The notes under the pieces: generated by a model
Seen by the model: the letters and a program-made list of their open reading frames with translations, nothing else
The model's database searches: none
What the model was told of the DNA's origin: nothing
Assembly (NCBI GenBank): GCA_030626025.1
Contig: DAOUPT010000003.1
Coordinates: 62,001 to 126,000 of the forward strand
Direction of reading: 5' to 3'
Length of the DNA: 64,000 bases
Origin: Anderseniella sp.
GTDB taxonomy: Bacteria > Pseudomonadota > Alphaproteobacteria > Rhizobiales > Aestuariivirgaceae
Made by a program: the position numbers and the translations under genes
Shown here: positions 1,608-58,201 of the stretch, one piece after another
Layout of the letters: each line of letters opens with the position of its first letter
How positions within the stretch are numbered: position 1 is the first letter of the stretch

Positions 1608-2909
1608 ATGATCCCGCGTTATTCCAACGACGAAATGACCGCCATATGGTCCCCCGAAACCAAATTCCGCATCTGGTTTGAAATCGAAGCCCACGCGGCA
1701 GATGCACAAGCCGAGCTGGGTGTGATCCCCAAAGAAGCAGCTAAAATCGTCTGGGAGAAAGGCAATGCGGCAGAGTTCGATGTCACCCGCATTGATACCA
1801 TTGAAGCTGAAGTCAAACATGACGTCATCGCCTTCCTCACCCACCTGTCAGAAATCGTCGGCCCCGAGGCCCGTTTCGTCCATCAGGGCATGACCTCATC
1901 TGATGTGCTCGACACCTGCTTTAACCTCCAGCTTGTCAAAGCCAGCGACCTGCTGATGAAAGACCTCGACAATCTGCTCGCAGCCCTGAAAAAACGTGCC
2001 CTTGAGCACAAGGACGATGTCTGCATCGGCCGCAGCCACGCCATCCACGCCGAACCCACCACCTTTGGCCTGAAACTGGCCCAGGCCTATGTTGAGTTTG
2101 AACGCTGCAAAAAACGCCTTGTCGTTGCCCGTGAAGAAATCGCCACCTGTGCCATCTCCGGGGCCGTTGGCACCTTTGCCAATATCGACCCGTCCGTAGA
2201 AGCCCATGTCGCCGAAAAACTTGGTTTGGCCATCGAACCGGTCTCAACCCAGGTCATTCCGCGCGACCGCCATGCAATGTTCTTTGCCGTATTAGGCGTC
2301 ATCGCCTCATCAGTTGAGCGCCTTGCAACCGAAATCCGCCATCTGCAACGCACCGAAGTTCTCGAAGTTGAAGAATTCTTCTCCAAGGGCCAAAAAGGCT
2401 CATCAGCCATGCCCCACAAGCGCAATCCGATCCTGACCGAAAACCTCACCGGCCTTGCCCGTCTGGTGCGCTCAAGCGTTTATCCGGCCATGGAAAATGT
2501 TGCCCTTTGGCACGAACGCGATATCTCGCACTCCTCAGTCGAACGCGGCATCGGCCCCGACGCCACCGTGCATCTCGATTTTGCCCTGCGCCGTCTCACC
2601 GGCGTCATCGACAAATTGCTGGTCTATCCTGAAAACATGCAAAAAAACATGGACCGCCTCGGTGGCCTCATCCACTCACAACGCGTCCTGCTGGCTTTGA
2701 CCCAAAACGGCGTTGGCCGCGAAGACGCCTACCGCCTCGTTCAGCGCAACGCCATGCCTGTTTGGCGCGGCGAAGGCAATTTCCTTGAGCTGTTAAAGGC
2801 AGATGACGAAGTAACCGCCGCCCTGTCCCACGCCGATATCAAGGCTTTGTTTAATCTCGACTATCACACCAAACATGTCGACACGATTTTCGCGCGGGTG
2901 TTTGGCTAA
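1608..2909 (+). CDS. purB: adenylosuccinate lyase
   Basis: PurB removes fumarate from SAICAR and from adenylosuccinate in purine synthesis. The fumarase/aspartase-superfamily signature GSSAMPHKRNP lies near residue 265, and the N-terminus MIPRYSNDEMTAIWSPE is typical of alphaproteobacterial PurB. I chose the ATG at 1608 (433 aa) because AAGAG lies about seven bases upstream and family members start with MIPRYS; the frame stays open to a GTG at 1593. The rest of the purine genes lie 6.5 kb downstream, with unrelated operons between. It is full length with no anomalies. Confidence 0.96.
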   Translation: MIPRYSNDEMTAIWSPETKFRIWFEIEAHAADAQAELGVIPKEAAKIVWEKGNAAEFDVTRIDTIEAEVKHDVIAFLTHLSEIVGPEARFVHQGMTSSDVLDTCFNLQLVKASDLLMKDLDNLLAALKKRALEHKDDVCIGRSHAIHAEPTTFGLKLAQAYVEFERCKKRLVVAREEIATCAISGAVGTFANIDPSVEAHVAEKLGLAIEPVSTQVIPRDRHAMFFAVLGVIASSVERLATEIRHLQRTEVLEVEEFFSKGQKGSSAMPHKRNPILTENLTGLARLVRSSVYPAMENVALWHERDISHSSVERGIGPDATVHLDFALRRLTGVIDKLLVYPENMQKNMDRLGGLIHSQRVLLALTQNGVGREDAYRLVQRNAMPVWRGEGNFLELLKADDEVTAALSHADIKALFNLDYHTKHVDTIFARVFG

Positions 2910-3003
2910 TTTCATAGCATCTGCATAGCCGGGTTATCGCACTTAAATACATTTGGTTTTTACCGTTGTTTTCCACTGCTGGATTGCCGTTTCCACTGGA
3001 CTC

Positions 3004-3026
3004 TACTTTAGAGGAGTTCTAAAGTA
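3004..3026. promoter_or_regulatory. Irr-type iron control element (ICE-like palindrome) upstream of rubrerythrin
   Basis: A perfect inverted repeat: TACTTTAGA (3004-3012), spacer GGAGT, TCTAAAGTA (3018-3026). Its core at 3007-3023 differs at one position from the ICE/Irr-box consensus TTTAGAA-N3-TTCTAAA recalled for Rhizobiales. It sits about 63 bases before the rubrerythrin ATG, a sensible operator position. Irr senses haem/iron status and represses iron-using genes under iron limitation. The palindrome is seen directly; Irr binding is inferred. Confidence 0.65.
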
Positions 3027-3029
3027 TCC

Positions 3030-3053
3030 GCATAGCAGACGAGTCTGTTATGC
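3030..3053 (+). other. stem-loop in the putative rubrerythrin leader
   Basis: GCATAGCAGA (3030-3039) pairs with TCTGTTATGC (3044-3053) over ten positions, one of them G-U, around a CGAG loop. It lies between the Irr-like box and the rubrerythrin ribosome binding site at 3077-3082. There is no U tract, so it is not a simple intrinsic terminator. A role in mRNA stability is possible but unproven. Confidence 0.4.
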
Positions 3054-3088
3054 GGATTTCCAACAAGACTATTTTCAGGAGAAAGCCC

Positions 3089-3508
3089 ATGTCTTTGAAA
3101 GGCAGTAAAACCGAGCAGCATTTGAAAGATGCATTTGCTGGTGAATCACAAGCAAACCGTCGTTACCTCTATTTCGCAGCCAAAGCTGACATTGAAGGTT
3201 ACAACGATGTAGCAACCGTGTTCCGTTCAACCGCTGAAGGTGAAACCGGCCACGCGCACGGCCACCTTGAATATCTTGAAGAATGCGGTGACCCGGCAAC
3301 CGGCATGCCTTTTGGCCCCACAGCGGCCAATCTGGCAACAGCCGTTGCAGGCGAAACCCATGAGTACACTGACATGTACCCAGGTATGGCCAAAGATGCC
3401 CGTGAAGAAGGTCACGATGAAATCGCTGACTGGTTCGAAACACTGGCCAAAGCCGAACGCTCACACGCCAACCGTTTCCAGAAAGCTCTTAACGAGCTGG
3501 ACGGCTAA
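3089..3508 (+). CDS. rubrerythrin-type diiron protein without a rubredoxin domain
   Basis: A 139-residue protein with ferritin-like diiron ligand motifs: EGETGHAHGHLEYLEE near residue 50 and AGETHEYTDMYPGMA followed by AKAERSHANRF in the second half. Rubrerythrins reduce hydrogen peroxide at a diiron site; this one lacks the usual C-terminal rubredoxin Cys4 domain, so it needs another electron donor. The ATG at 3089 is chosen because AGGAGA precedes it by six bases; an upstream ATG at 3050 falls in the leader hairpin. It is followed by an Fe-S protein and DUF3501, a recurrent trio, and the Fe-S protein is a candidate electron partner. Control by Irr is suggested by the palindrome upstream. 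Confidence 0.9.
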   Translation: MSLKGSKTEQHLKDAFAGESQANRRYLYFAAKADIEGYNDVATVFRSTAEGETGHAHGHLEYLEECGDPATGMPFGPTAANLATAVAGETHEYTDMYPGMAKDAREEGHDEIADWFETLAKAERSHANRFQKALNELDG

Positions 3509-3522
3509 CTGACAGCATTGAT

Positions 3523-3550
3523 CGTCATTCCAGCGAAAGCTGGGATGACG
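3523..3550. repeat. REP-like palindrome with GAAA loop
   Basis: CGTCATTCCAGC, GAAA, GCTGGGATGACG: a 12-pair stem with one wobble, between the rubrerythrin gene and the Fe-S protein gene. The outer CGTCATTCC...GGATGACG is shared with elements at 13546-13565 and 22337-22421, so this is a dispersed palindromic family. Here it could act as a partial terminator or an mRNA-stability hairpin, lowering expression of the downstream genes relative to rubrerythrin. Confidence 0.7.
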
Positions 3551-3576
3551 AGTTACTACGATCAGGATATACACCC

Positions 3577-4911
3577 ATGAGCCCTCCCCGCGAAGGCAGC
3601 CTTGAGGCGCCAACACGTCACCCTGTCGACTGGAAAAATCCCGACTATTACGACGAGCAGAAAGTTCTGGCCGAAATGGAGCGGGTGTTTGACCTCTGCC
3701 ACGGTTGCCGTCGCTGCGTCTCTCTGTGCAATTCCTTCCCGACATTGTTTGATCTGGTCGATGAATCAGAAACCTTTGAGGTTGATGGCGTCGCCAAGGA
3801 AGATTACTGGAAAGTGGTCGATGAGTGCTATCTGTGTGATTTGTGCTTCATGACCAAATGCCCCTACATCCCGCCGCATGAATGGAATCTCGACTTCCCG
3901 CACCTGATGTTGCAGGCAAAAGCAGTTCAGTTCAAAAAGAATGGCGCAAAACTGCGCGACAAAGTCCTGACCAGCACCGATGCCATGGGCAAAACCCTGG
4001 CTAGGCCGGTCATTTCAACCATCACCAACGCTGTCAACAAAGTCACCGTTTTCCGCAATGTGCTCGACAGCACAGCCGGCATTCACGCCAAAGCCTGGTT
4101 GCCCGAATACACCGCCAAGCCAATGCGCAAACGCCTTGCTGACAAATTAAACAACACCCGTCCGGGAACTCCGGCAGGTAAAACCACAGGCAAGGTTGCC
4201 CTGTTCACCACCTGCTATGGCAATTTCAACGAACCGGTTATCGGCGAAGATCTGGTTGCCGTGTTTGAACACAACAATATCCCCGTAACCCTCGCCACCA
4301 AAGAAGCTTGTTGCGGTATGCCCAAGCTCGAACTGGGCGATCTGGAATCCGTTGAAAAGGCCAAAAACGCCAATATCCCGATGCTGGCAAAACTGGTTGA
4401 TGAAGGCTACGACATTATTGCCCCGGTCCCTTCATGCGCCTTGATGTTCCGTCAGGAAATCCCCCTGATGTTCCCCAATGAGGCCGATGTCAAAAAGGTT
4501 CAGGCAGCCATTTTTGATCCGTTCGAATACCTCGCCCTGCGCCACAAGGCCGGTGTTCTCAATACCGAATTCAAAAACCCGATGAACAAGATTTCCTATC
4601 ACGCAGCCTGTCACCAGCGGGTGCAGAATTTCGGCCAGAAAACCCGCGAGGTTCTTTCGCTTATTCCCGATACCGAAGTCAAAATCATCGAACGCTGTTC
4701 GGGCCATGACGGCACTTATGCAATCAAGTCAGAGCACCATGAAGCAGCCATGAAAATCGCCCGCCCGGTTACCCGCCGGATCAAACAGGATGAAGCTGAT
4801 CATTATGGCTCAGACTGCCCGATGGCCGGACATCACATTGAGAACGCGCTGGGCGATGGCAGCAAAACCGAGCACCCCATCGCCCTCCTCCGCCAAGCAT
4901 ATGGAATATAA
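3577..4911 (+). CDS. GlpC/heterodisulfide-reductase-like Fe-S protein of the rubrerythrin-DUF3501 trio
   Basis: A 444-residue soluble protein. Two ferredoxin-like cysteine clusters, CHGCRRCVSLC (about residues 42-52) and CYLCDLCFMTKC (about 84-95), would hold [4Fe-4S] clusters. The C-terminal half has CCG-domain features (EACCGMPKLELGD and CSGHDG). This organisation resembles GlpC and heterodisulfide reductase subunits, which pass electrons between a flavin or quinone partner and an acceptor. No GlpA or GlpB is present; its neighbours are rubrerythrin and DUF3501 (two bases downstream). A plausible role is feeding electrons to rubrerythrin, but that is inference. Annotation as glycerol-3-phosphate dehydrogenase subunit would be misleading. 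Confidence 0.82.
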   Translation: MSPPREGSLEAPTRHPVDWKNPDYYDEQKVLAEMERVFDLCHGCRRCVSLCNSFPTLFDLVDESETFEVDGVAKEDYWKVVDECYLCDLCFMTKCPYIPPHEWNLDFPHLMLQAKAVQFKKNGAKLRDKVLTSTDAMGKTLARPVISTITNAVNKVTVFRNVLDSTAGIHAKAWLPEYTAKPMRKRLADKLNNTRPGTPAGKTTGKVALFTTCYGNFNEPVIGEDLVAVFEHNNIPVTLATKEACCGMPKLELGDLESVEKAKNANIPMLAKLVDEGYDIIAPVPSCALMFRQEIPLMFPNEADVKKVQAAIFDPFEYLALRHKAGVLNTEFKNPMNKISYHAACHQRVQNFGQKTREVLSLIPDTEVKIIERCSGHDGTYAIKSEHHEAAMKIARPVTRRIKQDEADHYGSDCPMAGHHIENALGDGSKTEHPIALLRQAYGI

Positions 4912-6844: not shown

Positions 6845-8077
6845 TCACTCAATCAGGAACTCACGCCCGACCTTGACCCGCTTTTTACCGTTGTAGGAAA
6901 TAATATCTGCCGTTGCATAGGTTTCCGTAAGTGTGGCCGGTAAAAAGCTGCCGGTGCCAATCATGTCAACCGGCACCCCGGCAGCCCCTATTACGTGGCA
7001 CTTCTGCGGGTTAAAGCCTGACGAGACCACGATTTTTGCATCGTTAAACCCGCCTTCATCCAGCACATGGCGCATATGAATAATCGATGCTGCTGACACC
7101 CCGGCACCAAAAAGAATACGCCGCACCCGGTCAACCATCAAGTTTCCCGCATCAAGGTGCACAGCACCCGGTCCCAGGATTCGTTCAACGATGTTGTATT
7201 CACCCTCAACGTCCAGAAATTCTCCAACAATGTGGATCGATTTGTCAAAATTCAGCCCTTCCGAGAACCGCCCGCCATGGGTATCAAGCCGAACGCCAAA
7301 GGTTTTGCCTTTGTCCTGCAATTTAGCCTCATTAAAAAACCAGTCAGCACATTTAAGAGCATCGGAAGTCTCATGGCCTTCATAATCCACCAGCGAAATA
7401 ACCGTTGGCGCATCGGGAATTTCTTTCATAAACAGCTTGGTTGCGGCAACCACGTCACCATCAGTATAACCAACCAGAGCGTGAGGCATGGTCCCGATGC
7501 CGTTTTTTGCTCCAAACAGCGGCGCTGTAAGGTCTTGAGATGAACCAACAAAACCAGTCACATCAGGGTTATCTGCCCGTGCAGCATCAGACCCCACCGC
7601 GGCGCCGTAAGCTGCCAGCAAATTCATTTCCGCTCCGGCTCCATGCCGGGCATGCATGTCCATGAAACTGGCTTTTGGCACAGCGCTACACATAGAATGA
7701 GCATTGCGGGCTGAAATGCACGGAAAGCCGACCTTTTGCAGCATCACAGTTTCAACTTCCGAAAGCTTTGACATCGGACCGGTGATTTCCAGCATTTTAT
7801 CCTCAGCCGGTACAATCTCACCTTCTTCAAAAAATCGGGTAACCACAGCCTCCGGCACCAGCGCCTTGATCAGGCGAATGGCAGGTTCAAGCGCTGCAAT
7901 CGACCTACGACGCAGAAACACCGCATAAGTGACCTCAGCATCGTTGTTGCCAGCAACAATCCGGCTGGTATTGGTGAAATACTTATCAGTGATGCTCGAC
8001 AGCGGCCCCGCTGCCATCGCCACATCAACCATCAGGTCCAAAACTTTAGACCGTTCCACGCTTATTTTATTACTCAC
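6845..8077 (-). CDS. nicotinate phosphoribosyltransferase-like protein (archaeal-type)
   Basis: The family makes nicotinate mononucleotide from nicotinate and PRPP in NAD salvage. Recognisable parts are ITDKYFTNTSRI near the N-terminus, the GTMPHALVGYTDGDVV segment, and GVRLDTHGGRF, which aligns with the VRLDTPSSRRG region of archaeal-type enzymes. I propose the GTG at 8077 (410 aa): it is preceded by GGGAGAG and its GTGAGTAA overlaps the stop of the upstream aldolase, suggesting coupling. The frame continues open to an ATG at 8125, which would overlap the aldolase by 56 bases. Pairing with an HpaI-type aldolase is unusual, so the true substrate could differ. Confidence 0.82.
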   Translation of the reverse strand: MSNKISVERSKVLDLMVDVAMAAGPLSSITDKYFTNTSRIVAGNNDAEVTYAVFLRRRSIAALEPAIRLIKALVPEAVVTRFFEEGEIVPAEDKMLEITGPMSKLSEVETVMLQKVGFPCISARNAHSMCSAVPKASFMDMHARHGAGAEMNLLAAYGAAVGSDAARADNPDVTGFVGSSQDLTAPLFGAKNGIGTMPHALVGYTDGDVVAATKLFMKEIPDAPTVISLVDYEGHETSDALKCADWFFNEAKLQDKGKTFGVRLDTHGGRFSEGLNFDKSIHIVGEFLDVEGEYNIVERILGPGAVHLDAGNLMVDRVRRILFGAGVSAASIIHMRHVLDEGGFNDAKIVVSSGFNPQKCHVIGAAGVPVDMIGTGSFLPATLTETYATADIISYNGKKRVKVGREFLIE

Positions 8078-8870
8078 CCAACTCTCCCTCAATTGCCGCA
8101 ACGCCCTGACCGATAAAGGCAACATCGGTCAACGCCGGCATCAGGCTGAACCCCATTGCCGTATATTTTTTAACATCATCAGAACTGCCAGTGTAAATCC
8201 CGGCAAATATCCCGGCATTTTTCGCTGCCGCAACAATTTTCGGCAATGCCTCCTGCACCATTGGGTGATTTACATCAGCCGCCGTGCCATTGGTCAGTGA
8301 GATACACAAATCATTCGGCCCGACAAACACCCCATCAAGCCCTTCAACCGCGCATATCTCATCGAGATTATCCAGCGCCGCTCTGGTTTCCACCATCGCA
8401 AATATTGCATTGAGGTCATTAGCTGTGGCCAGATACTGTTCTTTTGACAGGCCCATTTGAGATTGCCCCAGATAAGCTCCCCAGCTTCGCCCCCCAATGG
8501 GTGGGAATTTGGCAGCATCAACCAGTCGCCGGGCATCATCAGCGCTGTTGATCATTGGGCAGACAATACCCGCTGCCCCAACATCAAGCGCCCGCGAAAC
8601 CATAGCAAAATCATCCAGCGGCGGACGTATAATGGCATAGGTACTGGCAGCCCCTGTAGCTCCGGCGGTATTGACCGCTTGAACCATCTCAACCATGTCG
8701 CGATAGCCAATCATGCCGTGCTGCATATCAATCAACACCGCATCCAGCCCGGCACTTGCTCCAGAACTGGCAAAAACCCCGGCCTGAAACCCTCCCGGCA
8801 TCATCAGCCACGAACACAAAAGCGGCCTGACCTGGCCAAGCCGCTTGTTTATCGACGATTTACCCGGCAA
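8070..8870 (-). CDS. HpcH/HpaI family class II aldolase or lyase
   Basis: A 266-residue protein with family hallmarks: VLIDMQHG (metal/base histidine), an IIRPP segment carrying the conserved arginine, LDVGAAGIVCPMI, and VETRAALDNLDEI with the metal-binding glutamate. Members cleave 2-keto-3-hydroxy acids to pyruvate or a related keto acid plus an aldehyde, or act on citramalyl-type substrates; the substrate here cannot be told. The start appears to be TTG at 8870, eight bases after the DUF1476 stop and with AGAGGG upstream. It overlaps the phosphoribosyltransferase start. DUF1476, this gene and the phosphoribosyltransferase look like one transcript. Confidence 0.85.
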   Translation of the reverse strand: MPGKSSINKRLGQVRPLLCSWLMMPGGFQAGVFASSGASAGLDAVLIDMQHGMIGYRDMVEMVQAVNTAGATGAASTYAIIRPPLDDFAMVSRALDVGAAGIVCPMINSADDARRLVDAAKFPPIGGRSWGAYLGQSQMGLSKEQYLATANDLNAIFAMVETRAALDNLDEICAVEGLDGVFVGPNDLCISLTNGTAADVNHPMVQEALPKIVAAAKNAGIFAGIYTGSSDDVKKYTAMGFSLMPALTDVAFIGQGVAAIEGELGE

Positions 8871-45876: not shown

Positions 45877-48414
45877 CTAGGACCTCAAAGCGTCTTTCAC
45901 CGCACCGGTAAGTTGTTTGAGGGAGAATGGTTTGGCCAAAAAGGCAAAATCTTCCTGCCCTTCGAGATTTTTCTCAAAAGCTTCTTCGGCATATCCCGAG
46001 ATAAAGATAAACTGCGTTGTCACGCCCCGTTTGCGCAATTCCTTGAGCAAGGTCGGGCCATCCATCTCCGGCATCACCACGTCAGACAACACCAGATCAA
46101 TCTCCCCGGTATGGCCTTCCATCACTTCCAGAGCCGTTTCACCACTATCTGCTTCAAGCACTTCATAGCCACGCGTTGCCAGCGCCCGGGCGGCAAACAT
46201 CCGCACCGCATCTTCATCCTCAACCAGCAATATGGTTGCATCACCGGTCATGTCAGCCTTTTTGACATCAACCTTGACGGTTTCTTCAACCTGATCGGTT
46301 TCTTCCTTGTAAACCCGCGGCAGATAAACCTTAAACGTCGTCCCGCGCCCTACTTCACTGTCACAGAAAATAAACCCGCCGGTCTGTTTGACAATCCCGT
46401 ACACGGTCGAAAGCCCCAACCCGGTGCCTTTGCCCACTTCCTTGGTCGAAAAGAACGGCTCATAAATTTTCGCCAGCACCTCAGGCGGCATGCCGCTGCC
46501 ATTGTCTTCGACTTCACACACCACATACTCGCCTTCCGGCATCAGATTTGGCGCCACAATTTTTGACTCATGTTCTGAAACATTCGACGTCCTGATGGTC
46601 AGTTTGCCGTTGGCCCCCATGGCATCACGGGCATTAACCGCCAGATTGATAATCACCTGTTCAAACTGGTTCAGGTCAACCTTGACCAGACCAAGATCAC
46701 GCCCGTAAATCACATCAAGCTTGATCGTTTCACCGAGCAGGCGACCAAGCAGATTACCCAGGTCGCTCATGACATCACTAAGTGAAATGACTTCCGGTCG
46801 CAAAGTCTGGCGCCGCGAAAAGGCCAACAATTGCCGCACCAGATTGGCCGCACGGTTGGCATTTTGCTTGATGTTCATAATATCGGCAAAAGCCGGATCA
46901 GTCGGGCGGTGAGTAGCCAGCAACAAATCCGAAAAGCCGATAATGGCGGTCAGCACATTGTTGAAATCATGGGCTACCCCGCCGGCCAGTTGCCCGACCG
47001 CCTGCATTTTCTGGCTTTGGGCCAATTGCAGTTCAAGCGCCGAGTGCTTGCTGGTATCAACCACATAGGCATAAATGCTTTCTGCCGTTTCACTTTCATG
47101 GTCAAGACGCACCAGTAGAATGTTGGCGGTATTCTCATCATCGCCTTTAAAACCAACATTTACAGCCACCCGCCCGGCATCGCCCTGCAAGGCTTCACTA
47201 ATCCCGTCAGCCAGAGCCTGCTTGCTACGCTCTATCACCATATCGGTTAAAAGGCTGCCCAGAACTTCAACATCGCTGAGTGCCACAAATGCGCTGTTGG
47301 AATGAAGCACTTTGCCGTCAGCGGCAATTTCGGCAATGCCAAATGGTGCCCCATTCATCAACCGGGCAAATTTGACACTGCCCTGTTTAGCATCACCCGA
47401 AGCGGTTTCACGCATATCCAGCACCAGCGAACGCGAGGGCTGAGCCACACCGTCATCGTCAAAATCGGTCCTGTGAATAATTCGCACCGGTAAAAAACCA
47501 CCTGTAACCGGCCTCAAATCAATATCAAAAACAGCGGTACGCGCCTCATTATTTGCTGGCTTGAGATTAAGCAGCATTTCCGCATCCTCTGGCGCAATAA
47601 AGTCCGAGAGCTTGACACTGCCATCGGTTGTGTCTTGCAAATCAAGCCCCAGCCAGGTGGCAAGTGTTGCGTTGATGTAGGCAATCTCACCATTTTTGCG
47701 GGTTGAGAAAAATCCTGCCGGGGCGTGATCAAGATAGTTGATAATATACTGCAAATGCGAAAACGCCGCTTCCTGTCGCGAGCGGGTTTCACTGATATCA
47801 CGATAGCGCCACAAGGCATATGTGCGCCCCAGTCTGGCCCCGATCTGTTGAACCGAAATCCTCACCCAGGTTGGCTCACCGGCTCGCGCCCCGGTCACCG
47901 AGGAGCCCTCAGCCAAACGAAACTCTTCAAGCCCCGGCTCACCGGCTCTGGCCGCCTGCGACAGGCGATAAATCTTGTCAGCCAGATCAGGATATCCGGC
48001 ATACAGGTTTTCAAATCCCACCAGTCGCGAATAACCGGAATCTTCCAGCATCGTCCGATAATGGATATTACTGTAAATCACCCGGCCACGCTTGTCGGTA
48101 ACCACGCAGGCTTCGCTCAAACCATCAACCAGACTATCAAAAAACGCCCGCTGTTGCGGCGCTCTGCCAAGATGGGCAAACCCGGTCAACAGGGCAACAA
48201 GTCCAACCAGACCCAACAGCGCAAACCCGCCTAATACCGCAACAACGGCAAAACTTACCGGCTCCGGCATTTGACTGCCAAATGTCCGCACCAGCAAAAT
48301 CACACAAGCCGCCAGCACGACGACCAACCCGACAGCCAGCCACGGCTTTGGCTGCCTCGTCGCGCCATCTGGGATTTTCATCTTTGGCTGCTCTGCTAAT
48401 TCACTGTTGGTCAT
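45877..48414 (-). CDS. cckA: hybrid sensor histidine kinase CckA
   Basis: An 845-residue membrane hybrid kinase. Two membrane helices (about 24-43 and 53-77), PAS-like regions (about 90-460), the dimerisation/phosphoacceptor motif [21 protein letters not shown] with H482, an ATPase domain with N-box [10 protein letters not shown] (590-599) and G-boxes, and a C-terminal receiver with D778 ([12 protein letters not shown]). The [12 protein letters not shown] and [17 protein letters not shown] segments are diagnostic of CckA, which feeds phosphate through ChpT to CtrA in the alphaproteobacterial cell cycle. Location near recA and the FliO-like gene fits. Promoter DNA carries 12-base tandem repeats. 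Confidence 0.94.
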
Positions 48415-48496: not shown

Positions 48497-48675
48497 ATAC
48501 CAATGATGCATTGCCACTCCCGCCACACGAATCAGCCCCATAGAATCATATTCATATAATATAGGCAAATCACCATATTTCATCGCAAATAACCAATAGC
48601 GGATAGTTTTTTGGATTTTCGTAATTTTTTCCACTACAATACCCGTTGACAATATTTTTGGGGGAACCGGGAACA

Positions 48676-49134
48676 ATGGAATTTATCGAACCATATATGA
48701 ACCACATCATTTTTGGTGCAGTCGCGGTAGTCGCTGTAATTGTACTGCTAATGATCCTGCAGGCCTTCGGTGGCCGGGTTCGTGGCCGCAAGGGAAAACG
48801 ACTCGGGGTCAGTGAATACCGCGAGCTGGACCAGTCCCGTCGCCTGATGCTAATCCGCCGCGATGATGTGGAACACCTTATTCTTGTCGGAGGTGGTCAA
48901 AGCCTGGTGATCGAGCAAAACATCAACTTCAATCAGGACGGCAGCTATGCCAGCGAGCCGGTTGCCCACCATCGCGAAGCCCCCCAGAGTGTTGAAAATG
49001 ATGAACCCGAATTTGTCTCCCCCGAACCAAGCCACCGCCCGGCCCCCCGCGCCCCGGTCTTTGCCGACCGCGCCCCAAACATCCGCCCAATCCACCGCGA
49101 GGCTCCAAAGTTTGACCGCAACGACGATTATTAG
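48676..49134 (+). CDS. FliO-like flagellar export membrane protein
   Basis: A 152-residue protein with one N-terminal membrane helix (IIFGAVAVVAVIVLLMILQAF), a basic stretch, and a small beta-rich domain (LDQSRRLMLIRRDDVEHLILVGGG...LVIEQ) typical of FliO/MopB in Rhizobiales. FliO helps assemble the FliP export gate. The C-terminal third is a proline-rich disordered tail. The ATG at 48676 has GGGAAC upstream; the frame extends to 48646. No other flagellar gene is in the window, so a non-flagellar role cannot be excluded. Confidence 0.72.
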   Translation: MEFIEPYMNHIIFGAVAVVAVIVLLMILQAFGGRVRGRKGKRLGVSEYRELDQSRRLMLIRRDDVEHLILVGGGQSLVIEQNINFNQDGSYASEPVAHHREAPQSVENDEPEFVSPEPSHRPAPRAPVFADRAPNIRPIHREAPKFDRNDDY

Positions 49135-52841: not shown

Positions 52842-53687
52842 ATGCAATTTGAAGGCACCCAAAACTACATCACCACCGATGATTTACGCATCGCCGTCAA
52901 CGCCGCCATCGTCCTCGAGCGCCCGCTTCTGATCAAGGGCGAGCCGGGCACCGGCAAAACCGTGCTGGCCCATGAAATATCACAAGCCCTGAACACACCG
53001 CTAATCGAATGGCACATCAAATCCACCACCAAGGCCCAACAGGGCCTGTATGAATATGACGCCGTGTCACGATTGCGCGACAGTCAGTTGGGCGATGAAA
53101 AAGTCCACGACATTGCCAACTACATCAAGCAAGGCAAGATGTGGGAAGCCTTCACCTATAAAGAGCGCACCATCCTGCTGATCGATGAAATTGACAAGGC
53201 CGACATCGAATTTCCCAACGACCTGCTGCAGGAAATCGACCGGATGGAGTTTTTTGTTTATGAGACCGGACAAACCATCAAGGCCAATCATCGCCCGATT
53301 GTTATCATTACCTCAAACAACGAAAAAGAACTGCCCGACGCCTTCCTGCGCCGCTGCTTTTTCCACTATATTAAATTCCCCGACCCGGAAACCATGCGCG
53401 CCATTGTTGATGTCCACTTCCCCGACCTGAAAAAACGTCTGGTCAATGAGGCCCTCAATGTTTTCTACAATGTCCGCGACATCCCCGGCCTGAAGAAAAA
53501 GCCATCCACCTCAGAGTTGCTCGACTGGATCAAACTTCTGCTCAACGAAGATGTCTCTCCTGAAGTTTTGCGCGAAAGCGATCTGAAAAAGATCATCCCG
53601 CCGCTGCACGGCGCCTTGCTCAAAAATGAACAGGACGTCTCAGTATTCGAACGCCTCGCCTTCATGGCCCGCCGGGAACGGCGTTAG
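52842..53687 (+). CDS. MoxR family AAA+ ATPase
   Basis: A 281-residue ATPase: Walker A GEPGTGKTVLA near residue 37, Walker B LLIDEIDKAD, sensor 1 VIITSNNEKELPDAF and arginine finger FLRRC. MoxR proteins remodel or activate partner proteins, often with a VWA-domain protein encoded next door (as in CoxD/CoxE). No VWA gene follows; the next gene is a surface lipoprotein 149 bases away. The partner may lie elsewhere. Confidence 0.92.
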   Translation: MQFEGTQNYITTDDLRIAVNAAIVLERPLLIKGEPGTGKTVLAHEISQALNTPLIEWHIKSTTKAQQGLYEYDAVSRLRDSQLGDEKVHDIANYIKQGKMWEAFTYKERTILLIDEIDKADIEFPNDLLQEIDRMEFFVYETGQTIKANHRPIVIITSNNEKELPDAFLRRCFFHYIKFPDPETMRAIVDVHFPDLKKRLVNEALNVFYNVRDIPGLKKKPSTSELLDWIKLLLNEDVSPEVLRESDLKKIIPPLHGALLKNEQDVSVFERLAFMARRERR

Positions 53688-53836
53688 GAAAGAAGTCGCG
53701 AACGGCATTAGAAAAAAATCGAAACCGGAATTAAATTTGTCAACACTTATTTTGCATATTTCGTTCAGGCAATATTAACCTTAACAGTTCATTTTCGCAT
53801 CATCAGTTTGTAAGTATTTATTTGATGAGGCGTTTC

Positions 53837-55075
53837 ATGCGTACCGGGTCGTTAATTGCGTTAGCAGGGCTTGCAGCCCTTGGTTTGAGTGGTTGTGCAT
53901 CAATCGAAAAAACCCAATCTGCAGCCGCAGCTGCAGCTGCAGATGTCACCGATGAAATCACCGAAGCAACGACAGCGGGCGTAATCACACCCGCGGACCC
54001 TGATGCACCTGCGACAACCGGAAGCTCTTCTGGCTCGTCATCCGGCCAAAACATCCCCGATGGAGAGGGAAGCACCGCTTTTGTTTATAACGACCGGGCA
54101 TTCAATGTAGGTGGTAACGCCAAGTTGTTGGTCACTGTAACAGATGCTGCCCCAGGAGATGCACCCATTACCAATGAAACGGCAAATGTTGCCGTTGCTA
54201 CCGGTTTCAGCGCGATGACCTGGGCTGACCCGATAGAAATGGCACTATTCCGAACAACCGTAGATGGCATTATCCCTGAAGATTCCAACATCGAAGTTCC
54301 CACCGATGGTCTCAGCTTCAATCCAGATTTTTATTCCGCCGCTGTCACGAATCCAAATTTCACCGGTTATAAAGAATACCGCAAAATCACATCAACATCG
54401 GATGCTGAACTTCAGGTTTGGTCATACCAACACTCCAGAATTGGCCAATATACAGTCTTTAACGACCCGTCAGCGCCAAACAACAACAATGTAGCCGTGT
54501 TTTTTGACGGGGACGCCACACCTACGAGCGGTCTGCCCGCAAACACGGCAACTTATAACGGTAAATTTGGCGGGGTAGCCACTGTCTCAAACTTTACCCC
54601 AATATTAAGAACGGTAAATGACCCATTTGTCTCGTCAGAACCCTCAGATTTCGCAGGCCAGACTTATGATCCAAATGGCATCTGGCGAATTGCCGGCGAT
54701 TCTAGGGTAGTGGCCGATTTCACCAACGGCACAGTTAACGGTACGATCACCAATACAACATGGCGTAAGTTTACCGGGAGACACACGCACACAATCGTTC
54801 CTGCTGAACCCAATAAACCGTTCCATGACTACACATTTAACGGCACCATTACAGACAACACTTTTTCGGGCAGGACACTCGGTCCAGCCGGGGGTGTTGT
54901 AACCGGCAACAATGGCGTGAATGGTGGGTTTTTTGGACCTAATGCGGAAGAAGTTGCCGGTGTTGTTTCCGCTGAAACCACAGTTGCCCAACCTTCAGAC
55001 GGTATCACAACAAACGACATAAATCGTCGCGCCTTCATAAATATGCGTGGTGTCTTCCAGGGGACCAAACAATAG
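53837..55075 (+). CDS. TbpB-like surface lipoprotein, Slam substrate
   Basis: A 412-residue lipoprotein. Signal peptide with lipobox LSGC (MRTGSLIALAGLAALGLSGC, Cys20), then an Ala-rich helix, a Ser/Gly linker (GSSSGSSSGQ) and beta-rich domains. The C-terminal third (TYNGKFGGVATV, DFTNGTVNGTITN, FNGTITDNTFSG, GVNGGFFGPNAEEVAGVVS) has the repeat pattern of the TbpB-type C-lobe beta-barrel. Such proteins are displayed on the cell surface and bind transferrin, haem carriers or other host or environmental ligands. I prefer the ATG at 53837 since GATGAGG precedes it; 53825 is an alternative ATG. The Slam gene overlaps its stop, so it is the likely cargo. Confidence 0.82.
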   Translation: MRTGSLIALAGLAALGLSGCASIEKTQSAAAAAAADVTDEITEATTAGVITPADPDAPATTGSSSGSSSGQNIPDGEGSTAFVYNDRAFNVGGNAKLLVTVTDAAPGDAPITNETANVAVATGFSAMTWADPIEMALFRTTVDGIIPEDSNIEVPTDGLSFNPDFYSAAVTNPNFTGYKEYRKITSTSDAELQVWSYQHSRIGQYTVFNDPSAPNNNNVAVFFDGDATPTSGLPANTATYNGKFGGVATVSNFTPILRTVNDPFVSSEPSDFAGQTYDPNGIWRIAGDSRVVADFTNGTVNGTITNTTWRKFTGRHTHTIVPAEPNKPFHDYTFNGTITDNTFSGRTLGPAGGVVTGNNGVNGGFFGPNAEEVAGVVSAETTVAQPSDGITTNDINRRAFINMRGVFQGTKQ

Positions 55076-56463
55076 TGCCGCCCAGAATTATTGCAAAGCA
55101 TTTGTTTACAAATAAAGTGCACATCGCAAGATACACTCTTGGTTTCGTTTTGGTCCTACTGTCTCTAATCACCTGTTTATCGCCGGTGAACGCCCAGAGT
55201 GTGACCAAATCGGCAAAAACCAGCCAGGTCAACTTTGCCGCCCTGCCTGAAAACCAGCGCCTGCGTATCATGCTCGGAATGATCAAATCCGGTCGCCATG
55301 ACGAGGCCGAGCGTTTCTTGCAGGCCCATCCCCTTACCGACCAGCACTCAGCCAACCGCACCTTGTTCCTTGAAGGTCTGATCGCCAAAGTTCGCAAGCA
55401 ATACGATATTGCCACCAAAAAATTCCGCGCCGCTCTGGCCAGCGACCCAAAACTGACAATGGTCCGGGCCGAATTGGCCCACACCCTGTTCATCACCAAA
55501 CATGACGACGGCGCCAAGCATCATTTACAATTACTGTCTAGCGCCGCCCCGACGCCAGAACTTGCCAAACAGTTTGATCAATTCATTGATGCGGTAGATG
55601 CCCGTCGCCCGTGGAAACTATCGGCTTATCTGGCCATGGCGCCAAGTACAAACTTCACTTATGGCACCACCCGGCGCCTTACATCAAATGGCGGTGTAAT
55701 CGCTGGTAATTCACGCAAAAAGAGCGGCATTGGCGTTACCGGTGGTGCAAATGCTGGCTACACTTTCCACCCCGGTAAAGATTTGTCTGTGGTGGTCGGG
55801 GCCGGTGTGAACTTCCGGCAATATGAGGGTAAAACCTTTGACGACCTGATTTTTTCACAAAACGTATCAGTGGTGAGAAAACATAAAGCAGGCCAGATCA
55901 GCATTGGTGTATCAGCCAGTCAGCGTCGCGCCGGTAAAAATGAAATCATCTATGAGGGCGGCCCTCACCTTTCGATTACTCGAAACATCAACAACAAGGT
56001 CCAGTTTTTTACCAAACTGCGCCATCTCAAAACTGATTTCAAACTGGCCGACTACCGCAACGGCCACACCACTACCATCGACAACCGTCTTTCAGTTGCT
56101 CTTGCTCCAGACACGGTTTTCTACATGCTATCAGGTGGCCAGCGCACCACGACCACCCTCGAGCATCTCGATTTTTGGGCAGGGTATGGCGGTGTGGCCC
56201 TCTACAAAGAATTGCCGATGGGCTTAACCATCTACGCTCAGGGAAAACTCACCCGCAAACACTATGATGGTGACTTCCCCGGCTTGAGCGAACCCCAACA
56301 AGACACCAAAGTCGACATCGTTGCCTCTTTCACCAAACGCGATTTAAACATCTTTGGCCTTGCCCCGCGCTTTGATTACATTTATTCAAAAAGCATGTCG
56401 AACTCAGTATTTTCCGAGTATTCCACCCACGGTGCCAATCTGACCATGACCAAAGCTTTCTAA
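55075..56463 (+). CDS. Slam-type surface lipoprotein assembly modulator
   Basis: A 462-residue outer-membrane protein: signal peptide (about residues 14-40, ending SPVNAQ), an N-terminal TPR domain (about 45-170: EGLIAKVRKQYDIATKKFRAA-type helices, cited in part), and a beta-barrel of about 280 residues with alternating hydrophobic strands ending in Phe. This is the layout of Slam (SlipAM) proteins, which move lipoproteins such as TbpB to the outer surface. The GTG start overlaps the lipoprotein TAG stop (TAGTG) with GGGGA upstream, so the pair is coupled. The stop overlaps the next ATG (TAATG). Confidence 0.85.
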   Translation: MPPRIIAKHLFTNKVHIARYTLGFVLVLLSLITCLSPVNAQSVTKSAKTSQVNFAALPENQRLRIMLGMIKSGRHDEAERFLQAHPLTDQHSANRTLFLEGLIAKVRKQYDIATKKFRAALASDPKLTMVRAELAHTLFITKHDDGAKHHLQLLSSAAPTPELAKQFDQFIDAVDARRPWKLSAYLAMAPSTNFTYGTTRRLTSNGGVIAGNSRKKSGIGVTGGANAGYTFHPGKDLSVVVGAGVNFRQYEGKTFDDLIFSQNVSVVRKHKAGQISIGVSASQRRAGKNEIIYEGGPHLSITRNINNKVQFFTKLRHLKTDFKLADYRNGHTTTIDNRLSVALAPDTVFYMLSGGQRTTTTLEHLDFWAGYGGVALYKELPMGLTIYAQGKLTRKHYDGDFPGLSEPQQDTKVDIVASFTKRDLNIFGLAPRFDYIYSKSMSNSVFSEYSTHGANLTMTKAF

Positions 56464-57287
56464 TGCAAGCATCCCCTCAGCAAACCATCGGTATTGCCGG
56501 TTGTGGTGCCATGGGCCTGCCGATGGCTCGGGCTTTGTTGAACGCAGGCTTTCCTGTCAGCGGTTATGACATCCGCCCTGCCAATGAGTTTGCCGATTTC
56601 GCGCCACAGATGATCAGCGACCCGCACCAATTCTCGGACCTGTGCACCACAGTCATCTGCGTTGTCCGCGATGAAAAGCAGGTGCTCGACCTGTGTTTTA
56701 ACGATCAGGCCATTTTCGAAGCTGAAAACCCGCCACAAACATTCGTCTTGTCCTCAACCGTCTCCCCACGCTTTGTGCATAAATTGCGGGAAAAACTGCC
56801 GCAAGATGTCGTATTGATAGACGCTCCCATGTCCGGTGCGCCGCTGGCAGCCATTGCTGCGACACTGACCTTCATGGTCGGTGGCCCTGCCCAACCCGTC
56901 ACCGACCTGCAACCTGCCTTCCAGGCCATGGGCAGCAAAATCCATCATCTCGGCCACCTTGGCACTGGCATGACCGCCAAAGTCCTCAACAATTTTGTTG
57001 CCGCTTCAACCGTCGTTGCGGTTCGCAACGTCCTTTACCACGCTGACAAATTGGGCATGGACAAACAAACCCTTCTGGACGTTATGAGAAAAAGCTCTGG
57101 CCAGACATGGTTCGGCTCAAACTACCAACAAATCGACTGGGCCAATGAAATCCACGACAGCGCCAATACCATCGGCATTCTGGAAAAAGACGTCCGCTCT
57201 TTTATCAATGCCCTTGAAGATGGTCCCGAACCTTTGCACGATGCAATCATCACCGCCCTGCAAACCTTGCCGCCAGCCCCCTCTTAG
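56463..57287 (+). CDS. NAD(P)-dependent 3-hydroxyisobutyrate dehydrogenase family protein
   Basis: A 274-residue beta-hydroxyacid dehydrogenase: Rossmann motif GIAGCGAMGLPMARAL at the start, substrate motif DAPMSGAPLAA near residue 120, and catalytic lysine in GTGMTAKVLNNF near residue 177. It may reduce tartronate semialdehyde, methylmalonate semialdehyde or a similar compound. Its ATG overlaps the Slam stop by one base, so it is translated from the same mRNA, though the functional link with surface lipoproteins is not obvious. Confidence 0.88.
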   Translation: MQASPQQTIGIAGCGAMGLPMARALLNAGFPVSGYDIRPANEFADFAPQMISDPHQFSDLCTTVICVVRDEKQVLDLCFNDQAIFEAENPPQTFVLSSTVSPRFVHKLREKLPQDVVLIDAPMSGAPLAAIAATLTFMVGGPAQPVTDLQPAFQAMGSKIHHLGHLGTGMTAKVLNNFVAASTVVAVRNVLYHADKLGMDKQTLLDVMRKSSGQTWFGSNYQQIDWANEIHDSANTIGILEKDVRSFINALEDGPEPLHDAIITALQTLPPAPS

Positions 57288-57340
57288 AGTAATAAGTCTC
57301 CAAACAAGTTTGCAAGATTTGATTGAGGCAGGACGGGCAG

Positions 57341-58201
57341 ATGAAATTTTCATCCGGCGACGAATTTTTAAAATGGCCACAAAAAGCCATTACCATCATC
57401 GGCATGTCCGGTGTCGGCAAAACCACCCTTGCCAATATGGCGCGCCAAAACGACTGGTTCACCTACAATGTCGATTACCGCATTGGCACCCGTTACATGG
57501 GTGAACACATTGTCGATAATTTCAAGCGTCAGGCCATGAAAATCCCGCTTTTGGCCGACCTGTTGCGCTCGGATTCAATCTACATTTCGTCAAACATCAC
57601 TTTTGACAATCTCGCCCCCCTGTCCACCTATCTGGGCAAACCCGGCAATCCGGACAAAGGCGGTATCAGCTTTGATGAATATCGCCACCGCCAGGCCCAG
57701 CATAAAAAAGCCGAAATCGCTGCCCTCACCGATATTCCACACTTTATCCAGCGAGCTCATGACATTTATGATTACGATAATTTTTTCTGCGATACCGGCG
57801 GTTCGCTATGTGAGGTCATAAATTTTGACGATTCCGATGATCCGGTGCTGAAAACTCTCACCGACCACACCATGATCGTCTACATCAAGGGCTCAAGCGT
57901 TCATACCCAAACACTGGTCAAACGCTTTTCCAAAGCCCCCAAACCGATGTATTACCTGCCCGAATTTCTCGAACAGAAATGGGCTGAGTATAAAACCATC
58001 AACAAAATCTCAAATGACGATGATGTTGATCCCGACGACTTTATTGTCTGGGGGTTTGAGCAATTGCTGCATGATCGAATGCCGCGCTATGAACGCATTG
58101 CCAATGAGCACGGCTACACCATCGATATGGAAGACGTGCCCGGCCTCAAAACCGACAAAGACTTTTTGTCTTTACTCGCCAAAACCATAGACGCACAATA
58201 A
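57341..58201 (+). CDS. P-loop ATPase/kinase-like protein of unknown function
   Basis: A 286-residue protein with a clear Walker A ([15 protein letters not shown]) near residue 24. The following segment ([20 protein letters not shown]) and [15 protein letters not shown] look like a nucleotide or shikimate kinase fold but are not a family I can name. No membrane helix is present. The ATG at 57341 with GGACGGG upstream is chosen over a TTG at 57323. It lies between the dehydrogenase and metA, on the same strand with a 53-base gap. Confidence 0.65.

Follow-up and report, generated by a model that had tools for sequence, protein, structure and literature searches.

The window analysed here is a stretch of 64,000 nucleotides from Anderseniella sp. 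(GCA_030626025.1), which forms part of contig 31 in an assembly of 139 contigs and 3.7 Mb with a completeness rating of 100%. Three consecutive reading frames were confirmed on its plus strand: a gene for a surface lipoprotein of 412 amino acids (53837-55075), the putative cargo; a gene for a Slam, or type 11 secretion, outer-membrane protein of 462 amino acids (55075-56463, GTG start); and a gene for a beta-hydroxyacid dehydrogenase (56463-57287), a neighbour judged to lie outside the system. The lipoprotein frame opens upstream at TTG 53822, and an alignment of relatives supports the ATG at 53837 as the start. Stop and start codons overlap by one base at both joints, TAGTG at 55073-55077 and TAATG at 56461-56465, as a preliminary description of this DNA had reported. 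A predicted CtrA-type operator, TTCA-N7-TTAACC (53764-53780, plus strand), starts 73 bases before the lipoprotein start and belongs to a box conserved in 16/16 orthologous promoters. We consider it likely that the first two genes form a two-gene type 11 secretion (Slam) unit exporting a CtrA-controlled, TonB-independent surface lipoprotein.

The cargo lipoprotein and its probable exporter

The preliminary description presented the first product as a lipoprotein with a lipobox and TbpB-like barrel repeats. The lipobox LSGC is present at residues 17-20 (53885-53896), and its lipid-attachment residue Cys20 is kept in 14/14 aligned lipoproteins, the window protein included. The barrel was also recovered, but not its repetition: the Pfam domain TbpB_B_D matches one stretch only, residues 281-379 (E-value 9.5e-13, 49.2 bits, cut-off 26), and the structural model contains one eight-strand unit. 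Among the 14 aligned cargo proteins, 13 match TbpB_B_D. The model, built with 14 sequences (mean predicted local distance difference test score, pLDDT, 73.1; predicted template modelling score, pTM, 0.74; residues 1-66 below 50), consists of a disordered linker, a beta handle (strands within residues 79-251) and an eight-strand barrel (strands within residues 281-411). From these strands and the structural matches, the handle or pedestal domain was assigned to residues 76-251 (54062-54589, plus strand) and the C-terminal barrel to residues 281-412 (54677-55072, plus strand).

All 50 VIA structural matches listed for the cargo are Slam-type surface proteins, namely fHbp, NHBA, haemophilins, TbpB and LbpB. 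They include fHbp 4ayi (Z 16.4, root-mean-square deviation [rmsd] 3.9, 188 residues aligned, 17% identity), the C-terminal domain of NHBA 6cuj (Z 16.1, rmsd 2.6, 142 aligned, 28% identity), the C-lobe of TbpB 5kkx (Z 15.5, rmsd 3.7, 203 aligned) and haemophilin 6om5 (Z 15.4, rmsd 4.3, 191 aligned); many of the alignments to fHbp, haemophilin and TbpB start at cargo residue 73-107 and end at 411-412. With the same model, Foldseek retrieved 37 chains (E up to 0.001), every one of the fHbp, NHBA, haemophilin, TbpB or LbpB kinds; their whole-chain template modelling scores against the cargo query are low (0.20-0.30), as expected because the cargo model is multi-domain. When the lipoprotein family profile was compared with the PDB, TbpB chains matched best (E 2e-14) and NHBA weakly (E 0.068), a better performance than that of single sequences, which gave weak matches. 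The statement that the cargo is not a two-lobed TbpB stands, both Pfam and the model giving a single barrel. It does not qualify as TbpB proper, a protein with two lobes and a TonB-dependent partner, having one barrel in a genome without a match to the receptor Plug domain. Published type 11 cargo is described as comprising an effector part that varies, a pedestal of beta structure and, at the C-terminus, a barrel of eight strands (PMC12282271), an architecture with which the single-lobed cargo agrees.

The second product had been described as a tetratricopeptide repeat (TPR)-plus-beta-barrel protein of Slam layout, and this reading is well borne out. SlipAM (PF04575) is matched with 61.6 bits (E 1.2e-16, cut-off 22) and TPR_19 with 30.6 bits (cut-off 25), while SlipAM and TPR_Slam are matched at E up to 0.01 by 13/13 aligned Slam proteins, that of the window included. 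The model, built with 17 sequences (mean pLDDT 79.7, pTM 0.71), shows TPR helices at residues 51-177 (55225-55605, plus strand), presumably a periplasmic domain, followed by 14 strands of 11-17 residues that make up an outer-membrane barrel at residues 180-461 (55612-56457, plus strand). The best matches of this barrel are OmpG 2iwv (Z 21.7, rmsd 3.3, 259 aligned) and CymA 4d5d (Z 21.7, rmsd 3.2, 265 aligned), both of them 14-strand porins. Only the TPR parts were matched when the Slam family profile was run against the PDB, and no solved Slam barrel is among the structural matches listed for the model, which does not prove that none exists. The profile searches and the structure prediction that the preliminary description had proposed therefore both came out in its favour, with TbpB_B_D and SlipAM above their cut-offs and the lipoprotein C-terminus predicted as an eight-strand barrel. 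Two scores weigh against a straightforward assignment: TPR_Slam reaches 34.7 bits, narrowly missing the 35.2 bits required, and the lipoprotein remains under the cut-off of the NCBIfam model slam_lipo (NF041636; 42.5 versus 80 bits), placing it as related to, and outside, the equivalog.

The two proteins also travel together. In the Anderseniella genome, Slam and TbpB_B_D are each matched once. Relatives of its Slam were found in 16 of 60 kin genomes, the present one included, corresponding to 16/36 of the same family and 0/24 of other families of the order; in a class-wide sample of 385 genomes, again including this one, SlipAM was matched in 43 at E up to 0.001 and in 39 over cut-off. Querying genome contigs with the Slam alignment gave 17 loci, an earlier single-protein scan having given 19 pattern matches with no relative confirmed; several of these loci (L numbers) carry the same proteins as same-family genomes (G numbers). 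Titles of the metagenome-assembled genomes (MAGs) with a related Slam include Hyphomicrobiales, Aestuariivirgaceae, Aestuariivirga and Anderseniella. Slam is immediately preceded by a lipoprotein gene in 16/16 Slam-bearing genomes of the family, a count that includes G024, with a split lipoprotein frame, and G011, with a Slam interrupted by the contig end. In G024 (L032 1046-2265), the lipoprotein gene is spread over two overlapping frames near a contig end, pointing to a broken gene or an assembly error. G005 has a diverged pair at a different locus, where the lipoprotein still scores 40.1 bits against TbpB_B_D.

Between G001 and G002, the nonsynonymous divergence (dN) is 0.09 for both lipoprotein and Slam, and the synonymous divergence (dS) 1.5 and 2.1; near-saturated silent sites combined with few amino-acid changes indicate that both genes are under purifying selection. 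Both diverge faster than MetA and MoxR. Their distances co-vary beyond what two neighbouring genes account for, with partial correlations of 0.69 across 10 loci and 0.68 across 12 loci, the larger set adding complete G016 and G022 and leaving out G001, G005, G006, G011, G024, L045 and L046. None of 2000 label shuffles, which do not model the tree, reached the partial correlation in either set.

Slam-dependent surface display of the lipoprotein is thus predicted from sequence and modelled fold, and we regard it as very likely. Given its lipobox and what is known of the pathway, the lipoprotein would pass through Sec, be lipidated at Cys20 and be carried to the outer membrane. As expected from family membership, the 14-strand barrel and periplasmic TPR domain of Slam would then move it to the surface, recognising its C-terminal eight-strand barrel.

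The promoter box and CtrA

Upstream regions of 11 promoters align around one block, AA(T/A)ATTAAC (53764-53793 in the window), the 24-base core of which (21 bases specified) is unique in the Anderseniella genome with up to 3 mismatches. The consensus of the response regulator site of CtrA is given as TTAA-N7-TTAA (PMC9437464, PMC7200025). Seven of its eight bases are found between positions -80 and -50 in 16/16 lipoprotein promoters, a set that leaves out G024 (split frame), G005 (other locus) and L045 (contig begins at Slam); a dinucleotide-shuffle null gives 0.051 boxes per promoter on average. Within these loci, the regions upstream of eight nearby genes contain the box in 0/68 cases within this interval and in 2/68 anywhere in 120 bases. 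Because these regions are often coding or short gaps, an intergenic control was added from other upstream regions in the same loci (guanine-plus-cytosine content 0.47, versus 0.42 for the lipoprotein promoters), with 0/55 boxes in the interval and 2/55 anywhere in 120 bases. Among 15 cargo-like genes located near a Slam in G005 or in other alphaproteobacteria, one has a box within 200 bases upstream, a rough control as several starts are approximate (L035 is cut in-frame and not at a start codon) and TbpB_B_D was shown for some of the genes only.

The box might not be a CtrA site at all, but an element of the promoter itself or a target for a different regulator; this alternative was weighed on the internal structure of the box. 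Of the spacings N2 to N14, N7 alone is present in all 16 promoters. Moreover, the right (3') half is perfect in 11 promoters and the left (5') half in five, so that the site has changed while keeping its form, a behaviour that speaks against a non-CtrA element. The promoters are related and hence do not represent 16 independent events. Several observations weigh on the other side. First, the N2 spacing is found in 11/16 promoters within the interval and in 15/16 within 120 bases; for N13, the corresponding counts are 7/16 and 12/16. Second, each of the 16 boxes carries one mismatch, and no perfect TTAA-N7-TTAA occurs among the promoters or in the window, across which 14 such one-mismatch sites are scattered inside and outside genes. 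Third, the motif and the interval were picked after inspection of the sequences. Finally, the block can also be read as TTAACCTTAAC in several promoters, and the stretch downstream of it is partly conserved as well. The alternative of a non-CtrA element is thus a serious one, if the less probable. One specific candidate, the CenR motif of alphaproteobacteria, TGA-N8-TGA (PMC9275681), was rejected, being present in only 2/16 promoters. Scans of 53600-57700 yielded 4 sigma-70 promoters versus 4.2 expected, and nothing above the gathering score in Rfam.

CtrA is the response regulator of a phosphorelay at whose top stands CckA. A gene for a CckA-like kinase (45880-48414) lies 5.4 kb from the pair, its product scoring 982.8 bits against a Brucella-type CckA model with a cut-off of 1000. 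CtrA control of the lipoprotein gene is thus predicted from the DNA and considered probable. The box would link expression of the lipoprotein to the CckA-CtrA programme of cell cycle and motility, and it offers a testable connection between Slam export and the alphaproteobacterial cell cycle. By eye, the product of 48646-49134 looks FliO-like; it matched no family.

TonB, Skp and the role of the putative surface protein

The lack of a TonB-dependent receptor gene beside the pair, pointed out in the preliminary description, extends to the genome as a whole, which has neither a Plug match nor a receptor barrel above cut-off. Plug, the TonB C-terminal domain and the chaperone Skp were each searched with one profile at E up to 0.001, a setting that a diverged homologue could escape. 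No match was obtained in the Anderseniella genome for Plug or for the TonB C-terminal domain, each of which is matched in 3/14 control genomes. The sole receptor-barrel match is sub-threshold (19.8 bits, cut-off 27) and falls in a gene cut at the start of contig C86, whose frame reads FadL-like by eye. A TonB-receptor partner was rejected for this genome.

These results bear directly on the possibility that the lipoprotein is a nutrient-capture co-receptor, delivering iron, haem or some other metal to a TonB-dependent receptor whose gene lies outside this locus. Such a role would be in keeping with the presence of TbpB and haemophilin among the nearest folds, and with the reported occurrence of a TonB receptor gene in 120/185 lipoprotein-bearing Slam clusters (PMC5449769). 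Plug domains in 4/16 Slam-bearing genomes of the family (G006, G020, G024 and G030) likewise weigh against a TonB-independent system. The other 12 of the 16 genomes have no Plug match, G011 and G028 among them being rated 82% and 78% complete, and the genome considered here, although rated 100% complete, lacks matches to both TonB parts. In addition, only Met1 and Cys20 among the His, Cys and Met residues of the window lipoprotein are kept in 12 or more of the 14 aligned proteins. Capture of haem or metal through conserved His, Cys or Met ligands was rejected on this ground; a Tyr-based or backbone site could still serve, and Tyr178 and Tyr240 are kept in 14/14. Overall, we hold the co-receptor role to be unlikely.

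Instead, a TonB-independent role in binding or attachment is favoured, because the searches brought up no receptor, no TonB and no conserved residues to ligate haem or metal. We give this function about an even chance, and the narrower proposal that the lipoprotein is an adhesin seems doubtful. Stand-alone action is the most likely mode since TonB parts were not found: the displayed protein may serve binding or attachment as a single-lobed protein comparable to fHbp or NHBA, without feeding a TonB-dependent receptor. fHbp and NHBA are not known to have a TonB receptor partner. These proteins of Neisseria share the single-lobed surface lipoprotein fold and are among the best structural matches, but identity is low over the aligned parts (17% and 28%, respectively) and no animal host is expected here.

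The export step raises a question of its own. The Anderseniella genome has no match to Skp/OmpH (PF03938), whereas 6/14 control genomes do; many Hyphomicrobiales are not known to have a skp gene beside bamA. Slam-dependent display of TbpB requires Skp in E. coli, and Skp matters in N. meningitidis (PMC9090332), a requirement that comes from those hosts and does not define the Slam family by sequence. Set against the missing match, this requirement counts against the proposed export, for which another holdase has to be assumed unless Skp has diverged.

The preliminary description was right to see a Slam in an alphaproteobacterium, but the case is less unusual than it implied, as such Slams have been reported before (PMC8406197, PMC12282271, PMC5449769). 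Slam-type proteins occur in all clades of Proteobacteria (PMC5449769) and form ten network clusters, the best studied of which is cluster 1, subcluster 1C being largely from Sphingomonadaceae (PMC8406197). Cluster 3 is largely from Rhodobacteraceae/Roseobacteriaceae, rarely has a TbpB barrel, and comes with genes for DUF1194 and lactoylglutathione lyase; all seven experimentally verified type 11 secretors counted in the same paper belong to an animal-associated cluster (PMC12282271). The comparison with these clusters was made by description, and neighbouring genes were compared with the window genes only, without a scan for DUF1194. Slam1 and Slam2 of Neisseria, with TbpB, LbpB, HpuA and fHbp (subcluster 1A), share with the present pair the TPR-plus-14-strand exporter and a lipoprotein of handle plus eight-strand barrel. 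The pair differs from them in its single-lobed cargo lacking a second transferrin-type lobe, in the absence of TonB-part and Skp matches, in the CtrA-type promoter box and in a family described as free-living, a life style deduced for Aestuariivirgaceae from gene content (PMC8555084). Cluster 3 loci are similar in their alphaproteobacterial Slam and rare TonB neighbours, but rarely have a TbpB barrel (PMC12282271), whereas 13/14 of the cargo proteins aligned here match TbpB_B_D. The surface proteins of Sphingomonas and subcluster 1C share the alphaproteobacterial Slam and the TbpB barrel, yet show multiple barrels and N-terminal proline-threonine repeats (PMC8406197, PMC12282271) in place of one handle-barrel pair after a low-complexity linker.

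A search of the available literature returned no paper joining Slam with CtrA and a surface lipoprotein, nor Slam and a surface lipoprotein with Rhizobiales; the main text of PMC12282271 makes no mention of Hyphomicrobiales or Rhizobiales. Alphaproteobacterial Slams being already published, the novelty lies in the setting, which combines a CtrA-type box with the lack of matches to TonB and Skp. Slam pairs are best known from animal-dwelling bacteria, and much of their known cargo serves metal or haem uptake; a pair that keeps its position in a family described as free-living therefore allows the purpose of Slam export outside hosts, and the identity of the chaperone it needs, to be addressed. 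We put forward, tentatively, that a family-wide Slam may have been rewired in these free-living bacteria, with display placed under CtrA (at a cell-cycle stage or in one daughter cell), without TonB and without Skp. If true, the rewired system would provide a surface or attachment protein whose appearance is timed by development, and Slam export would then be independent of Skp.

Other loci also deserve mention. In a Loktanella MAG (L054 1543-4456), a gene of the glyoxalase family and two genes for DUF1194 proteins come after Slam, the published cluster 3 layout, and Pfam gives no family (E up to 0.01) for the protein before Slam. Proteins directly before Slam in the Rhodobacteraceae loci L052 (2632-3300) and L053 (7090-7758) have no TbpB_B_D match at E up to 0.01 and are possible unrecognised cargo. 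Near one Slam in L096 lie two genes (2726-3739 and 7279-8322) for lipoprotein-like products with Pro-Thr repeats, recognised by eye; the first matches TbpB_B_D (E 2.2e-13), and both resemble the published Sphingomonas surface proteins.

The dehydrogenase and other neighbouring genes

The third gene of the run (56463-57287, plus strand) had been called a 3-hydroxyisobutyrate-type dehydrogenase. The superfamily is confirmed, NAD_binding_2 and NAD_binding_11 being those of beta-hydroxyacid dehydrogenases, but the specific identity is not, with 127.5 bits against a cut-off of 291.6 for the NCBIfam model TIGR01692; the protein is below cut-off for each of the 17 NCBIfam models listed.

Its coupling to the Slam system, to which the preliminary description gave weight, did not withstand comparison of the three-gene order. 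The gene after Slam could be identified in 14/16 genomes (G006 shows 855 bases only, G011 none), and the dehydrogenase holds this place in three of the 14: the present genome, G001 and G002. It is missing there in G003, a genome of the same genus, as well as in the remaining 10. Homologues of 65% identity or more are restricted to the same three genomes among the 18 searched; in the other 15, the best-scoring match is 21-34% identical, with short pieces of about 36 residues reaching 50%. One functional operon of three genes, the dehydrogenase working with the surface protein, could be read from the one-base overlap in the present genome, from a place kept in three species, and from purifying selection on the enzyme (dN/dS 0.13 versus G002 and 0.14 versus G001). 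Against this, the Slam and dehydrogenase frames abut in G002 and are 2 bases apart in G001, the 855 visible bases after Slam in G006 contain no dehydrogenase match, and the enzyme carries no export signal by eye. Coupling was rejected on synteny and on the whole-genome search for relatives of the enzyme, and a three-gene functional operon is very improbable. Placement in 3/14 genomes together with homologues in three genomes only indicates that the dehydrogenase came in by a late, local insertion, and in all probability it is incidental to the Slam system.

A P-loop gene (57341-58201) follows Slam in 13/14 genomes, three of them after the dehydrogenase, the exception being G005. Upstream, a gene for a MoxR-like AAA ATPase is the next conserved gene in eight genomes (the present one, G001-G004, G011, G024 and G031), and is separated from the lipoprotein gene by two open reading frames in G020 and G028; it was not seen upstream in G005, G006, G016, G022 and G030, and little is visible in G033. 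In G039, from another family of the order, genes for the AAA ATPase, the P-loop protein, MetA, a phosphohistidine-phosphatase-like protein (by eye) and YcjX are contiguous without the pair. This arrangement is consistent with insertion of the pair into an older gene block, as judged from one outgroup; loss is possible instead. The P-loop protein itself, 286 amino acids long, belongs to no Pfam family over cut-off and is without an NCBIfam match (E up to 1e-5); it is 57-81% identical in relatives, and its gene adjoins metA in genomes with and without Slam.

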